Positions 52,410 to 58,944 of a stretch of 64,000 nt of DNA are shown in pieces. The stretch's first letter is position 1. Every line of letters starts with the position of its first letter. Source of the stretch: Paenibacillus sp. JJ-223 (GTDB lineage Bacteria; Bacillota; Bacilli; Paenibacillales; Paenibacillaceae); the NCBI RefSeq assembly GCF_927798175.1, contig NZ_CAKMMP010000006.1:1-64000 (forward strand), read 5' to 3'. The translations under genes and the position numbers were made by a program. Below the pieces are notes generated by a model. That model saw only the letters and a list, made by a program, of their open reading frames with translations. It was not told where the DNA came from and did no database searches.

Positions 52410-52709
52410 ATGGCTGAAGATCGACTGGGTATGGAAGAAGAATCGGAGATTATTTACATCGCGGATGATGAGGGTAATGAAGAGGAATTCGAAGTCATCA
52501 TGAAATTTGAGGTGGACGGTTCGGAGGCCAAGTACATGATGGTTGCTCCGGTTGAACCCGAAGATGGCGAAACGGATGTTTATGCATTCCGTTACGAAGA
52601 AGAGGGAGACGACATTAAACTTTTCGTGATCCAGGACGATGCCGAATGGGAAATCGTTGAGGAAACCTTTAATACATTTCTTGCAGAAGATGAAGAGGAA
52701 GCGAACTAA
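52410..52709 (+). CDS. DUF1292 protein (YrzB, UPF0473)
   Basis: A very acidic 99-residue protein: EEESEIIYIADDEGNEEEF, then MKFEVDGSEAKYMMV and EPEDGETDVYAFRYEEEGDD. This is the complete UPF0473 pattern. Function is unknown. Its stop codon directly abuts the next gene's ATG, a second member of the same family. Confidence 0.93.
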   Translation: MAEDRLGMEEESEIIYIADDEGNEEEFEVIMKFEVDGSEAKYMMVAPVEPEDGETDVYAFRYEEEGDDIKLFVIQDDAEWEIVEETFNTFLAEDEEEAN

Positions 52710-53024
52710 ATGACAGAATACAGCCGCAAAGACCTAAAATGGACAGATTCGCTGCGTTTGGCTTATGGTGCCCACGTTGAACTTGAAGAAGAGAACGGTA
52801 AATCGCATCCGTATGACTTGCTGGCTGAATTTGAGGTGAAGGGTCAGCAATATGCGGTGCTTCGCAGTTCACTGCGGCCATACGACGAGGTAGAGCTCTT
52901 GCGGGTTTTGCCTGCCAAAGAAGGCCAGGTCATGCCTGAACTGGTTACCATTGACGATGATGACGAGTGGGAGAACATTTCGGAGCTGTATGATGAATGC
53001 ACACTTCCGATTGATGAAGATTGA
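52710..53024 (+). CDS. Second DUF1292-like protein
   Basis: A 104-residue protein with ATG 52710 following the yrzB stop without a gap. LRLAYGAHVELEEENGKSH, YDLLAEFEVKGQQYAVLRS and a terminal acidic EWENISELYDECTL mirror the layout of its neighbour with much divergence. It is probably an old tandem duplicate under coupled translation. A terminator follows 23 bases later. Confidence 0.8.
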   Translation: MTEYSRKDLKWTDSLRLAYGAHVELEEENGKSHPYDLLAEFEVKGQQYAVLRSSLRPYDEVELLRVLPAKEGQVMPELVTIDDDDEWENISELYDECTLPIDED

Positions 53025-53074: not shown

Positions 53075-53099
53075 GTTGTGTAGAGGAGTTGTGTCTTTT

Positions 53100-54140
53100 T
53101 TGAAAGGAAAAGCGATTATAGTCATTCTGCTTATTATCATCATTGCCGCGGGAGGGGCCGGCACATATGCCTGGAGTTTGACACGCCCAGTCCAGGCTTC
53201 GGAAACGCCGATCACGCTGGAGATTAAGAGCGGTTCGGGAACTTCGGCCATTGCGGACCAACTGCAGCGGGAGGGGTTGATCCGGAGCTCGCTTGCATTT
53301 AAAGCCTATTTGAAATGGAAGAACCAGGGTTCAAATTTCATGGCAGGCACGTACGCGATGAATCCCGGCGTGACCTTTGATGAAATTATTAGCAAGCTCA
53401 GCAGCGGTGATGTTGTGCCCGAGGAAATGGTGAAATTCACCATTCCCGAGGGTTACACGATACTGCAAATGGCGGACAAGCTGTCCGAGGAGGGCATCGT
53501 GAACCGGGAAGAATTCATTACATTGGCCAATGAGCCGTCCGCATTCGACCTGGACCTCATCAAGGGTGCTCCTGTGGACGAAGAACTGCGTTACGTGTTG
53601 GAAGGATATCTTTTTCCCGAAACGTATGAGGTGAAAAAGGATAGCTCCACCCATGACGTCATGCAGCGCATGATGGAAGAGCTGGAGACCCGGCTGCAGA
53701 CGATTCCCGATCTGGAAGCGAAGCTGAAGGAGCGGAACTTGTCTCTGCATGAACTGTTGACCGTTGCCTCGCTCGTTGAACGGGAAGTTGTAGTGGACAA
53801 GGAACGCGCGCTTGTGGCCGGCGTGATCTATAACCGGATCAACCGGGACATGAAGCTGGAGATCGATGCGACGGTGCAATATTTGTTGGACAAACCGAAG
53901 GCAAGGCTGCTCTTTGCCGATCTGAAAGTTCAGAGTCCTTATAATACGTACCTGAATAAAGGACTGCCGCCGGGACCGATTGCGAGCCCAAGCTTGGCGT
54001 CCATTAAGGCGGCACTGGAACCGCAAGCTTCGGACTACTTGTTCTATGTGACCAAGAAAGACGGCTCCTCGGAGCATCTGTTTGCCAGAACGTACAAGGA
54101 ACATCAGCAAAATATAGCCAAAAGTAAGGCTGCGCAATAA
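53100..54140 (+). CDS. mltG: MltG, endolytic murein transglycosylase
   Basis: MltG cuts nascent glycan strands and so sets their length. TTG 53100 lies 11 bases after GAGGAG; GTG 53091 is only two bases from it, so either start is possible (346 or 349 residues). A single N-terminal helix (AIIVILLIIIIAAGGAGTYAW) anchors it. A LysM-like region follows (FTIPEGYTILQMADKL). The YceG domain has LEGYLFPETYEV, LTVASLVEREV with the catalytic Glu, and NTYLNKGLPPGPI. Position matches B. subtilis yrrL. Confidence 0.94.
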   Translation: MKGKAIIVILLIIIIAAGGAGTYAWSLTRPVQASETPITLEIKSGSGTSAIADQLQREGLIRSSLAFKAYLKWKNQGSNFMAGTYAMNPGVTFDEIISKLSSGDVVPEEMVKFTIPEGYTILQMADKLSEEGIVNREEFITLANEPSAFDLDLIKGAPVDEELRYVLEGYLFPETYEVKKDSSTHDVMQRMMEELETRLQTIPDLEAKLKERNLSLHELLTVASLVEREVVVDKERALVAGVIYNRINRDMKLEIDATVQYLLDKPKARLLFADLKVQSPYNTYLNKGLPPGPIASPSLASIKAALEPQASDYLFYVTKKDGSSEHLFARTYKEHQQNIAKSKAAQ

Positions 54141-54154
54141 GCGGAGGGATGGAA

Positions 54155-55084
54155 ATGAGTAACAGACATGAGCTGCTTGTCACGGCAGCCAATGTAAAGG
54201 AAGCGGAGGCTCTTCTTCAGGCCGGGGCGGATGCCCTGCTCATCGGAGACGATCGGTTCGGGATGCGCCTTGCGGGGAGCTTCAGCCTCGAGGAAACGGC
54301 AGAGGTGGTTCACATCGCCGCCAAACACAATGCCCGTGTGGTTGTATCCATGAACAACCTGATGTCGAACGAGCTTTTGAAGGAAATTCCCGAATATGTG
54401 CAGGCTCTGGGGCAAATCGGCATTCATGCGGTGGAGTTTAACGATCCGTCCGTGCTCCGCGCCGTGCGCGAGCTTGCTCCGCACATCAAGCTGCATTGGA
54501 ACGCCGAGATGACTTCCACAAACTATGCGACCTCCAACTATTGGGGAAGCAAAGGGGCTAGCCGTGTCGTCTTGGCACGCGAGCTGAACATGGACGAAAT
54601 CACCGAGATGATGCCTTATTTGAAGGTGGAAGCCCAAGTGCAGGTTCACGGCATGACGAATATTTATCATTCGAAGCGCAGCCTGGTACAGAGCTACATG
54701 GCTCACCAAGGCCGTCCCGTGGAAGGGGATTTGGGCAAAGAAAGAGGCCTTTTCCTGATTGAGGCAGAGCGCCGCGATGAGAAATTCCCGATTTATGAAG
54801 ATCTGAACGGTACACATATCATGAGTTCGGAAGATATCTGCATTTTGGAGGATTTGCATCTGCTGATGGAGGCGGGGGTGCATAGTTTCAAAATCGAAGG
54901 CATCCTCAAACCTCTCGCTTATAATGAAGCGGCCGTACGTGCCTATCGTGCGGCAATCGACAGCTATCAGGCTGATCCTGAAGGTTATGAATATCGGGAT
55001 GAATGGCTGGAGCGGGTGCGTGAGCTGCAGGACCCCGAGCGGGAGTTGTCTTTTGGCTTTTTCTATAAGGAACAGGTGTATTAA
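54155..55084 (+). CDS. U32-family protein, YrrN/TrhP1-like
   Basis: A 309-residue U32 protein. ATG 54155 follows GGAGGG by six bases; the ATG at 54149 is too close. LLQAGADALLIGDDRFGMRL and HSFKIEGILKPLAYNEAAV fit the fold. It lacks the U32 cysteine cluster: at the equivalent place it reads VHGMTNIYHSKRSLVQSYM. In B. subtilis YrrN and YrrO together support prephenate-dependent hydroxylation of tRNA U34. The order mltG-yrrN-yrrO fits, but the methyltransferase gene yrrM (trmR) normally between is absent. The last base overlaps an ATG of the next frame. Confidence 0.88.
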   Translation: MSNRHELLVTAANVKEAEALLQAGADALLIGDDRFGMRLAGSFSLEETAEVVHIAAKHNARVVVSMNNLMSNELLKEIPEYVQALGQIGIHAVEFNDPSVLRAVRELAPHIKLHWNAEMTSTNYATSNYWGSKGASRVVLARELNMDEITEMMPYLKVEAQVQVHGMTNIYHSKRSLVQSYMAHQGRPVEGDLGKERGLFLIEAERRDEKFPIYEDLNGTHIMSSEDICILEDLHLLMEAGVHSFKIEGILKPLAYNEAAVRAYRAAIDSYQADPEGYEYRDEWLERVRELQDPERELSFGFFYKEQVY

Positions 55085-55101
55085 TGAAAGAGGTGAACGT
55101 T

Positions 55102-56430
55102 ATGGAAGCAGTGGCGGTCAAACGCAAATTTTCAGGCAAACGGAACCGCCTGGACAAACCGGAGCTGCTCGCTCCGGCAGGGAATTTGGAAAAATTGAAA
55201 TTCGCCATCCACTACGGCGCGGATGCGGTATACATCGGCGGTCAGGCCTACGGTCTGCGCTCCAACGCCGACAATTTCAGCTTCGAGGAAATGCGCGAAG
55301 GCGTGGAGTTCGCTAACAAATACGGTGCGAAGGTATTTGTGGCGACTAACATCTATGCGCATAACGAAGATATCGAGGGCATCGAGGAGTACCTGCAAAA
55401 CCTGTACAACGCGGGCATTGCTGCCGTCATCGTGGCCGATCCGGCCATTATCGAAGTGGCTCAGCGGGCGGTTCCGGGCCTGGAGGTGCATTTGAGCACC
55501 CAGCAGTCGACGCTGAATTGGCAGGCGGTGAAGTTTTGGAAAGAGGAAGGATTGCCGCGTGTCGTCCTTGGGCGGGAAACCAGCTTTGAGGAAATCGAAG
55601 AAATCAAAGCCAACGTGGATATCGAGATTGAGGCATTCATCCATGGAGCGATGTGTTCTTCATATTCGGGACGCTGCGTATTGTCCAACCACTTTACGGA
55701 TCGCGATTCCAACCGGGGCGGATGCTGCCAGTCTTGCCGCTGGAAATATGACCTGTTCGAGGATGCGCGCGAAGACGCGGTATGGGTTAGCGAAGAGGAG
55801 ATGCAGATGAAATCGCCTGCGCCATTTAAGCTGGGTGAAAATCAACTGCCGCTCTTCCAGGAAAATGATAATGCATTCTCGATGGGGTCGAAGGATTTGT
55901 GCATGATCGGGCATATTCCCGAGTTGATCGATGTCGGCGTCGACAGCTTCAAAATTGAAGGACGCATGAAATCGATCCACTATGTGGCGACGGTCGTTAA
56001 CGTATATCGGCAAGCGATTGACGCCTATATGGCTGATCCGGAAAACTACGTGCTGAAGCCGGAGTGGGTCGAAGAAATAAACAAGGCAGCCAATCGTCCG
56101 CTGAATACCGGCTTTTTCTATGATACGCCGGATCATGAGGATCATATCTATGAGCCGGAAGAAAAAGCGGTGCCTTATGATTTTGCCGGACTGGTTTTGG
56201 ATTACGACGCCGCTACGGGCATCGCAACCATTCAGCAGCGCAATCATTTCAAACCTGGGCAAGAAATCGAATTTTTCGGTCCAGGGGGCACGTTTTTCAA
56301 ACAGGTGGTCGGTGAGCTTCGCGACGAAGAGGGCAATGTTCTCGATGCGGCACGCCACCCGCTGCAGCCTGTCAAAATGAAGGTGGATCAGCCTGTATCC
56401 TATTTTGACATGATGAGAAAAAAGAAATAG
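55102..56430 (+). CDS. U32-family protein, YrrO/TrhP2-like
   Basis: The larger U32 partner, 442 residues from ATG 55102 with AGAGGTGAA upstream (an ATG at 55084 overlaps the previous stop but lacks a site). It starts with LDKPELLAPAGNLEKLKFA and has the U32 signature EAFIHGAMCSSYSGRCVLS followed by a CCQSC motif. Those cysteines probably bind an Fe-S cluster. SFKIEGRMKSIHYVA and a C-terminal barrel end it. Predicted role is tRNA wobble uridine hydroxylation; older databases call it a collagenase-like peptidase. Confidence 0.92.
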   Translation: MEAVAVKRKFSGKRNRLDKPELLAPAGNLEKLKFAIHYGADAVYIGGQAYGLRSNADNFSFEEMREGVEFANKYGAKVFVATNIYAHNEDIEGIEEYLQNLYNAGIAAVIVADPAIIEVAQRAVPGLEVHLSTQQSTLNWQAVKFWKEEGLPRVVLGRETSFEEIEEIKANVDIEIEAFIHGAMCSSYSGRCVLSNHFTDRDSNRGGCCQSCRWKYDLFEDAREDAVWVSEEEMQMKSPAPFKLGENQLPLFQENDNAFSMGSKDLCMIGHIPELIDVGVDSFKIEGRMKSIHYVATVVNVYRQAIDAYMADPENYVLKPEWVEEINKAANRPLNTGFFYDTPDHEDHIYEPEEKAVPYDFAGLVLDYDAATGIATIQQRNHFKPGQEIEFFGPGGTFFKQVVGELRDEEGNVLDAARHPLQPVKMKVDQPVSYFDMMRKKK

Positions 56431-56661: not shown

Positions 56662-58944
56662 ATGGGATTGGTCCAAAAGAAGCAGAAAGACAGCGGGGAA
56701 CAATTAGGTAAATCGGTACAGGAGAAGAGGGAGAAGAACACAAAGACACCCAAAGAAAATATATTCAAGAAGGTGAAGCTGTTCAAAGGCAAGGCAACGG
56801 GTGATGGACAGAGCCCGAACGAAAAGCCTCTTAAATCAGGCTTGGGCAAGCTTCGCTTGAACAAGATCGAATGGAAACAGGTGGGGGGGACGACGTTTTC
56901 ACAGATCAAAAAAGCAAACCCGATCAAATCGGTGGGCGTGAAGCTGTTTTTGGTCTTTTTCACGGCCATTATGGTCTTTGTGGTAAGCTTGGGCCTATTG
57001 TCCTATTCCAAGGCAAAGGGCACGATTGAAGAAAACGCTTCACGGGCAAATCAGGAAACGATCGATCAGACCAAGGAGAAAATGGATATCATTCTGGAGC
57101 GGTTCGTGGATACGTCCACGCAGATTTTCTTTGATCCGGAAATGCAAAGTTTGCTGCAAAAAATGGGCGATAAAAATTTGTCGGCCTACGATAGTTTCAT
57201 CAATTCAAGCTCCATCAATAAACAGTTGTCCAACGTTGCATTTACAAACAAATCCATGGAAGCGATTTATCTGGTGCCCACGGATGAAACGAAATCGACG
57301 ATGGGCACGGGCGGCAACAGTTCCAGCGTGGCCAATATCCGCAATGAACCTTGGTATGCCGAGATTACCGAATCCGGCGGATATCGCTGGCTTCCAACGG
57401 AAGTTCCGGAAGACGGAGGCACACCAACGTTCCGCATCGCCCGTTCCATGAAAAACCTGCAGGGCTCCAGTTTGTCTTATGTGCTCATCATTGAGCTGAA
57501 GCTGGAAGTGCTCGAAGAGCAGCTGAAATCGCTCAACCTGGGTGAAGGGGCCATTCTGCAGCTGATTGCTCCCGACAACAAAGTGGTGGCATCCAGCATT
57601 TCCGACCGAACTGGAAAGGAAACCGAATTATCCTTTGTGAAGGACCTGACCGAAAATACCGGAAGCGTTAATGCTTCTTATACGCTTGACGGAAAATCCA
57701 CGGAAATGCTCGTTGTGTACAGCACGATGGACACCTCGGGTTGGAAACTGATCGGCATGGTGCCAACGTCCATGCTGGTCAAAGACGCCAAAGGCATTCT
57801 GACGACGACGCTGTGGATGGCTTTGGTTGACGCAGCCATTGCGGTATTGATCGGCATGTGGATGGTACGCATGATTGCCCGTCCGCTCGCCAAATTAAAG
57901 GATTTGATGCAAGAAGGAGCGAAGGGAAATCTGAGAGTGCGAACACCATTCACTTCGCGTGATGAAATCGGCCAATTGTCGTCCGCCTTCAACCTCATGA
58001 TGGAGCAGATTACCAATCTCGTCGAGCAAACCAACCGTTCGGCCCGCGAGGTATTGGATACCGCTACCGAATTGAGCAGCGCTTCGAAGAAAACGGCGAT
58101 TTCCGCTTCGGAAATTGCTGTCGCCACGGAGGAGATTGCCGGCGGAGCGAGCAGCTTGGCTACTGAAGCCGAGCGTGGCAATGAATTGACCGATAACATT
58201 TCGACCCAGATGGCCAGCGTGATATCGGCTAACGAACAGATGGGGCAATCCGCTCGCCATGTTGAACAGTCCAGCGAGCAGGGAACGCGGCATTTGAATC
58301 AGCTCATGACCAAAACGCAGAAGACCGAAGAAATGATTGGCGCACTCGTCAAAAAGGTCGATTCCCTTAAAGATAGCACGTCGTCCGTGCTCAAAGTGCT
58401 TGAAGTACTGCAAAACATTACGAAGCAAACGAATATTTTGTCCTTGAATGCGACCATTGAGGCCGCCCGAGCCGGAGCGGCAGGCAGAGGATTCATGGTT
58501 GTGGCGGACGAGGTTCGCCAGCTTGCGGAGCAATCCAGAAAATCCATCGACATGGTCGGCGAGATTGCCGACAACATTATGAACGAGATGAATGCAACGG
58601 TGGAAGCACTGTCTGCCGCGTATCCTTTGTTCAAAGAGCAAATGGATGCCGTTAAAGACACCAACGTCATTTTTGACTCGGTTCAGCAGCAAATGGGTGC
58701 TTTCGTTGAACGTCTGGATTCCGTGACGGATTCCATCGAGGATTTGAATGAAGCTCAAACGACGTTGTCCGAAGCGATGAGCAACGTAAGCGCAGTGGCA
58801 GAACAATCTTCGGCAACGTCCGAAGAGGTTGCTTCACTGAGCAGCGAGCAGCAAAACATCAGCAACCAACTGGTGAAACTGTCCGAGAAGCTGGAGAACG
58901 TCTCCGCCGAACTTAAAGATACATTGTCCCGGTTTACAGTCTAA
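56662..58944 (+). CDS. Methyl-accepting chemotaxis protein with long N-terminal extension
   Basis: A 760-residue chemoreceptor. Residues 1-90 are a Lys-rich, hydrophilic extension ahead of the first membrane helix (LFLVFFTAIMVFVVSLGLL). An extracellular Cache-type sensor of about 270 residues follows, with NEPWYAEITESGGYRW. The second helix (MALVDAAIAVLIGMWMVRM) leads to a HAMP domain and the signalling domain with hairpin tip NILSLNATIEAARAGAAGRGF and VVADEVRQLAEQS. Ligand is unknown. No sigma-D promoter was recognised upstream. The N-terminal extension is unusual for the family. GGCAGGTGA is a weak ribosome site. Confidence 0.92.
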   Translation: MGLVQKKQKDSGEQLGKSVQEKREKNTKTPKENIFKKVKLFKGKATGDGQSPNEKPLKSGLGKLRLNKIEWKQVGGTTFSQIKKANPIKSVGVKLFLVFFTAIMVFVVSLGLLSYSKAKGTIEENASRANQETIDQTKEKMDIILERFVDTSTQIFFDPEMQSLLQKMGDKNLSAYDSFINSSSINKQLSNVAFTNKSMEAIYLVPTDETKSTMGTGGNSSSVANIRNEPWYAEITESGGYRWLPTEVPEDGGTPTFRIARSMKNLQGSSLSYVLIIELKLEVLEEQLKSLNLGEGAILQLIAPDNKVVASSISDRTGKETELSFVKDLTENTGSVNASYTLDGKSTEMLVVYSTMDTSGWKLIGMVPTSMLVKDAKGILTTTLWMALVDAAIAVLIGMWMVRMIARPLAKLKDLMQEGAKGNLRVRTPFTSRDEIGQLSSAFNLMMEQITNLVEQTNRSAREVLDTATELSSASKKTAISASEIAVATEEIAGGASSLATEAERGNELTDNISTQMASVISANEQMGQSARHVEQSSEQGTRHLNQLMTKTQKTEEMIGALVKKVDSLKDSTSSVLKVLEVLQNITKQTNILSLNATIEAARAGAAGRGFMVVADEVRQLAEQSRKSIDMVGEIADNIMNEMNATVEALSAAYPLFKEQMDAVKDTNVIFDSVQQQMGAFVERLDSVTDSIEDLNEAQTTLSEAMSNVSAVAEQSSATSEEVASLSSEQQNISNQLVKLSEKLENVSAELKDTLSRFTV

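Follow-up and report, generated by a model that had tools for sequence, protein, structure and literature searches.

In Bacillus subtilis, the mltG-trmR-trhP2-trhP1 operon serves the mo5U34 pathway, wherein TrmR methylates the 5-hydroxyuridine (ho5U34) that is formed at the tRNA wobble position. Paenibacillus sp. JJ-223 resembles B. subtilis in the order of mltG, trhP2, and trhP1 and in carrying these hydroxylase genes plus TrhO, but trmR is absent from the locus. What, then, becomes of ho5U34 in this organism? The locus lies in the window, by which we mean the whole 64,000-nucleotide stretch of DNA that was analyzed, and comprises the following features.

53076 to 54140, plus strand: mltG, an endolytic transglycosylase of the YceG family (TIGR00247, 256 bits, cut-off 103.4; Pfam YceG).
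54141 to 54154, plus strand: 14-base gap with the trhP2 ribosome-binding site; the position of trmR in 15 of 18 fetched Bacilli loci from outside Paenibacillaceae.
54155 to 55084, plus strand: trhP2 (yrrN-like), a peptidase U32 protein and partner of the prephenate-dependent tRNA U34 hydroxylase (PF01136, 207.5 bits; gene order as in other Bacilli and similarity to their trhP2).
55084 to 56430, plus strand: trhP1 (yrrO-like), a peptidase U32 protein with a U32_C domain (Pfam; conserved cysteines).

The names trhP2 (yrrN) and trhP1 (yrrO) follow Sakai 2019 (PMC6599085). The original prediction held that the yrrN-like gene follows mltG after 14 bases with trmR missing between them, and the sequence bears this out: the TAA stop codon of mltG occupies positions 54138 to 54140, and the ATG start codon of trhP2 lies at 54155, downstream of GGAGGG at 54143 to 54148. 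Use of an alternative in-frame ATG at 54149 would reduce the gap from 14 to 8 bases, but we prefer the start at 54155 because its ribosome-binding-site spacing is better. By Pfam, TrhP2 is without the C-terminal U32_C domain that is present in TrhP1. The nearest named TrhP2 records, among the best 80 of 533 candidates, are 84 to 88% identical (P. pabuli 88%, P. taichungensis 87%), which would place the window near these species within Paenibacillus. Upstream of mltG are two tandem DUF1292 genes (52410 to 52709 and 52710 to 53024) with zero gap between them, and a methyl-accepting chemotaxis protein gene (56662 to 58944) comes after trhP1. Of the 80 named loci (again the best 80 of 533 candidates), 77 have a relative of this chemotaxis gene on the same strand, downstream of trhP1. 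Two of the three exceptions come from shorter records (L090 and L143), the second of them also with a different numbering, such that the relative was possibly missed.

The missing gene is not a peculiarity of this strain. Among the 80 named loci that were fetched by TrhP2 as the best 80 of 533 candidates, all 80 carry mltG, trhP2, and trhP1 in a row with an mltG-trhP2 gap of −4 to 311 bases, and none yields a TrmR or OMT match at 1e-3. A search for trmR remnants in 34 of 91 gaps, namely those of at least 60 bases between match ends, returned nothing beyond chance matches of 10 to 18 residues. The start of trhP2 in one locus (L120, Paenibacillus sp. D2_2) matches as a separate piece, which suggests a frameshift or a sequencing error.

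For a wider comparison, a profile was built from the 15 TrmR proteins encoded directly before trhP2 in other Bacilli. We define TrmR grade as the range of 158.5 to 351.7 bits on this 15-member profile, which is reached by 103 of the 151 Bacilli in our class sample. TrhP2 is present in 113 of 118 sampled Paenibacillaceae, and TrmR in none of the 118, the best score being 154.6 bits for a protein that scores 265.7 bits on the OMT2 profile (see below). At a threshold of 1e-80, TrhP2 is missing in G196, G215, G224 (g95), and G244 (g82), besides G158; G196 has two TrhO matches and one OMT2. In the class sample, all 12 Paenibacillaceae have TrhP without TrmR, and in all 12 mltG is followed by trhP2 without an intervening methyltransferase. 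Outside the family, TrmR accompanies TrhP in 80 of 81 TrhP-bearing Bacilli. The comparison loci were the 18 best-matching ones of the class sample outside Paenibacillaceae; in 15 the TrmR gene directly precedes trhP2, and in the remaining three (L018, L027, and L029) TrmR is encoded elsewhere in the genome. The TrhP count leaves out nine genomes whose only U32 match is weak (1e-23 to 1e-27), all of which carry TrmR and TrhO. Absence of trmR is thus a property of Paenibacillaceae in these samples, and neither chance nor local damage. The pattern fits one old loss of trmR, presumably a single ancestral event.

The original prediction named a trmR orthologue elsewhere in the genome as the finding that would refute it, and the search for one came out negative. 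No protein of TrmR grade was found in the JJ-223 genome (a draft of 6.95 Mb in 46 contigs with a computed completeness of 100%), nor in the 118 sampled Paenibacillaceae, such that B. subtilis differs from this family in the genome-wide presence of trmR as well as in the locus. Two PF01596 methyltransferases are encoded, OMT1 and OMT2, both of which lie outside the TrmR subfamily and have B. cereus OMT 3dul as their nearest solved structure. OMT1 (L001, 228 amino acids) scores 110.9 bits on the TrmR profile, whereas the OMT2 match is weaker than an E value of 1e-30. In a maximum-likelihood tree of 78 proteins, 29 TrmR sequences split from 49 DADK-type sequences with 100/100 support, and the DADK-type clade includes OMT1, OMT2, and the proteins of genus g86; the placement of one long branch (L036) is unsure. 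We rejected OMT1 as a TrmR candidate, given its position in the DADK clade and its 286.7 bits for 3dul compared with 61.9 bits for B. subtilis TrmR (5zw3). The g86 proteins (L033 to L035), which at 142 to 155 bits are the best in the family on the TrmR profile, were likewise rejected because they carry the DADK motif and score 262 to 268 bits on the OMT2 profile.

The original prediction also raised cmo5U as an alternative modification. The E. coli cmo5U34 pathway (TrhP/TrhO, CmoA, CmoB, and CmoM) shares with Paenibacillaceae the two hydroxylation routes to ho5U34, but CmoA (TIGR00740) and CmoB (TIGR00452) each exceed their cut-offs in 0 of 59 Paenibacillaceae genomes, JJ-223 included, and cmo5U is therefore unlikely. 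The best CmoB match in JJ-223 reaches 51.4 of 275 bits, and there is no CmoA match at 1e-12.

The hydroxylases themselves have been kept. Tandem U32 genes are present, one with U32_C and the conserved cysteines, as is characteristic of TrhP1 and TrhP2. All 110 aligned copies of TrhP1 have cysteines 191, 198, 214, and 218, which argues that the hydroxylase is under constraint. Beyond the earlier prediction, a second hydroxylase, TrhO, is encoded in addition to TrhP1/TrhP2, as judged from a UPF0176_N match (PF17773) of 96.1 bits (cut-off 26.2) at G000:C2:271040-271312. TrhO is found in 34 of 59 Paenibacillaceae genomes. We also considered whether the missing enzyme is encoded near TrhO and rejected this: the adjoining gene in JJ-223 is a helix-turn-helix regulator, and the open reading frames there other than TrhO itself are unmatched in nine other TrhO loci except for one match in L187. 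With the hydroxylases kept and TrmR, CmoA, and CmoB not found, ho5U34 is to be expected, but without a known finishing enzyme.

The tRNA set indicates how much depends on this nucleotide. By the tRNA family search there are 77 tRNAs, and ARAGORN reads 77 in the same stretches, one of which is without a clear anticodon; the initial scoring covered 150 of 251 candidates in this draft genome. The anticodons in the boxes of interest are as follows.

Val: 3 UAC.
Thr: 4 UGU.
Ala: 1 UGC.
Pro: 5 UGG, 1 GGG.
Ser: 1 UGA, 1 GGA, 1 CGA, 2 GCU.
Leu: 3 CAG, 2 UAG, 3 CAA, 2 GAG, 1 UAA.

In this draft-genome scan, U34 tRNAs appear to be the only readers of the Val, Thr, and Ala four-codon boxes, and this raises the stakes of the missing finishing step. 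Boxes of this kind are served in B. subtilis by G34 tRNAs as well. In 11 genes of the window, codons that end in C occur often (GTC 83, GCC 130, and ACC 61).

From gene content, the known finishing methylase appears to have been lost, and JJ-223 would either stop at ho5U34 or use a different candidate enzyme. We tentatively favor the former, without putting it at even chances: an ancestor of Paenibacillaceae would have lost trmR and kept its tRNA U34 hydroxylases, and ho5U34 itself would serve as the working wobble base. TrhP1/TrhP2 (the prephenate pathway) and TrhO (the oxygen pathway) would convert U34 to ho5U34 in tRNAs of the Val, Ala, Thr, Pro, Ser, and Leu boxes, with their action on U34 presumed by analogy to B. 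subtilis and E. coli. The product would then remain as it is, its 5-oxygen already widening decoding; its status as the end product is what we infer. No organism is known to us in which ho5U34 is the final state of normal tRNA. Sakai 2019 (PMC6599085) describes E. coli without cmoB as accumulating ho5U34 with a slightly increased doubling time, and B. subtilis short of AdoMet as carrying ho5U in place of mo5U, which together indicate that such an endpoint is workable at some cost. The cost is apparent in UCG decoding in E. coli, for which the same report finds that ho5U34 outperforms plain U34 yet falls short of mcmo5U34, with more frameshifting. We found no literature that links trmR with Paenibacillus. 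Also against this reading, the terms mo5U, ho5U, hydroxyuridine, and methoxyuridine have no match in the main text of the one LC-MS survey we found that includes a Paenibacillus (PMC8818000). An endpoint at ho5U34 leaves one observation as coincidence or shared ancestry, namely the presence of OMT2 in 28 of 29 hydroxylase genomes of the class sample that are without TrmR.

This observation speaks for a different outcome, in which OMT2, the best candidate for another finishing enzyme, took over from TrmR and would methylate ho5U34, yielding mo5U34 by use of S-adenosylmethionine and a metal ion, which would make it a second, separately recruited synthase of the same superfamily. We regard this as possible, though doubtful. 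The gene in JJ-223 is as follows.

G000:C12:212516-213136, minus strand: OMT2, a catechol-OMT-like protein (PF01596).

At 1e-10, a PF01596 protein is encoded in 58 of 59 Paenibacillaceae, and all 58 have an OMT2-type copy by profile coverage (match end at least 198), a rough criterion that some OMT1 proteins also pass; sequences support OMT2-type status for 21 of the 58, and OMT2-profile scores for a further 5. Eighteen OMT2 copies are 57 to 70% identical to that of JJ-223. The gene adjoins an RlmL-like gene of rRNA-methyltransferase type (domains UPF0020, THUMP, and RlmL_1st) in 17 of 20 fetched regions, our own included, and this conservation and synteny is a housekeeping pattern. The sole Paenibacillaceae genome of the 59 without PF01596, G158, at the thresholds applied also has neither TrhO nor TrhP2; shared loss or assembly gaps (3.1 Mb, 190 contigs) may explain these joint absences.

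In the class sample, the two methyltransferases together cover nearly all hydroxylase genomes. TrmR or OMT2 is present in 131 of 132 Bacilli with a hydroxylase, compared with 4 of 19 without one, all four of which have OMT2. OMT2 occurs in only 13 of the 103 hydroxylase genomes with TrmR. The OMT2 set consists of 45 genomes after 3DUL-type proteins were excluded by re-scoring; G089, G109, and G131 belong to it by profile score only (240 to 256 bits), and G071, which has TrmR, was left out with a 93-position OMT2-like fragment of 102.7 bits that would make the last count 14 of 103. The one hydroxylase genome with neither enzyme, G082, is a 420-contig assembly whose U32 gene is closer to trhP1 than to trhP2, and it was kept in the counts as an exception. 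Sixteen other Bacilli have TrhO without TrhP or TrmR, and all 16 score as OMT2 carriers, as follows.

Family f6: G006, G030, G063, G078, G092, G103, G114, G125, G147.
Family f17: G017, G098, G109, G131, G142.
Family f30: G038, G070.

The OMT2 contrast holds when Paenibacillaceae are excluded (Fisher p 3e-11 and 1e-5, with genomes as units that are not independent). With families as units in a hand count, 4 of 4 or 4 of 5 compare with 5 of 29 (p 0.003 or 0.012; 0.005 or 0.019 if the G071 fragment is counted), and two doubtful genomes decide where in the range of 0.003 to 0.019 the p value falls. However, the TrmR-less lineages may be related, and the OMT2 counts are therefore not independent. 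Also against a takeover are the 4 genomes with OMT2 but no hydroxylase and the 13 with both OMT2 and TrmR. Moreover, of the seven OMT2 neighbors outside Paenibacillaceae that were run against Pfam, six belong to other kinds of family and one is without a match, and by eye none of the other neighbors is RNA-modification-like.

The protein itself also speaks against this role. OMT2, which forms a clade separate from TrmR, has D at the column of TrmR A132 (DAAK) in 37 of 37 sequences and V at that of K208 in 35 of 37, and is without R/K178 and mostly without R/K173. For its structural model, the nearest match is to B. cereus OMT 3duw, a small-molecule methyltransferase (Z 29.9, rmsd 2.1, 210 aligned, 44% identity), rather than to TrmR 5zw4 (Z 23.8, rmsd 2.5, 206 aligned, 22% identity). 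Net charge fails to separate OMT2 (mean −7.5) from TrmR (−5.8). With the bacterial catechol O-methyltransferases Rv0187 and 3duw it shares the fold, the DADK motif, and 39 to 44% structure-aligned identity, but differs from that class in being a near-universal, mostly syntenic gene in Paenibacillaceae. The relative Rv0187 is reported to make mo5U from free ho5U nucleoside, but to have no significant activity on ho5U-containing tRNA, the latter with data not shown there (PMC6543040).

It is unlikely that an unrecognized enzyme outside PF01596 and CmoAB alkylates ho5U34. Searches of the kind used here cannot list every methyltransferase by its substrate, which leaves room for such an enzyme, but none was recognized beside trhP1/trhP2 in the window or beside TrhO in JJ-223. 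Least probable is that TrhP1/TrhP2 and TrhO of Paenibacillaceae act elsewhere and leave U34 plain, an idea for which there is precedent in RlhA, another U32 protein, which hydroxylates 23S rRNA (Sakai 2019, PMC6599085), and whereby the tRNA role could have gone along with TrmR, but against which stand the kept trhP2-trhP1 tandem, the kept TrhP1 cysteines, and the finding that TrmR occurs in 0 of the 19 hydroxylase-less genomes among 139 sampled outside the family, which ties the hydroxylase genes tightly to the U34 pathway in the class.

Whether ho5U34 is the endpoint or is finished by another enzyme, there is a real, family-wide gap in the known pathway, composed of known parts in a new combination. 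The modification mo5U34 is described as the major Gram-positive one of its type (PMC10516636), and a large family with the hydroxylases but neither known finishing route breaks this rule. Paenibacillaceae would thus offer a natural system for the study of ho5U34 decoding on its own, or a lead to a new enzyme.
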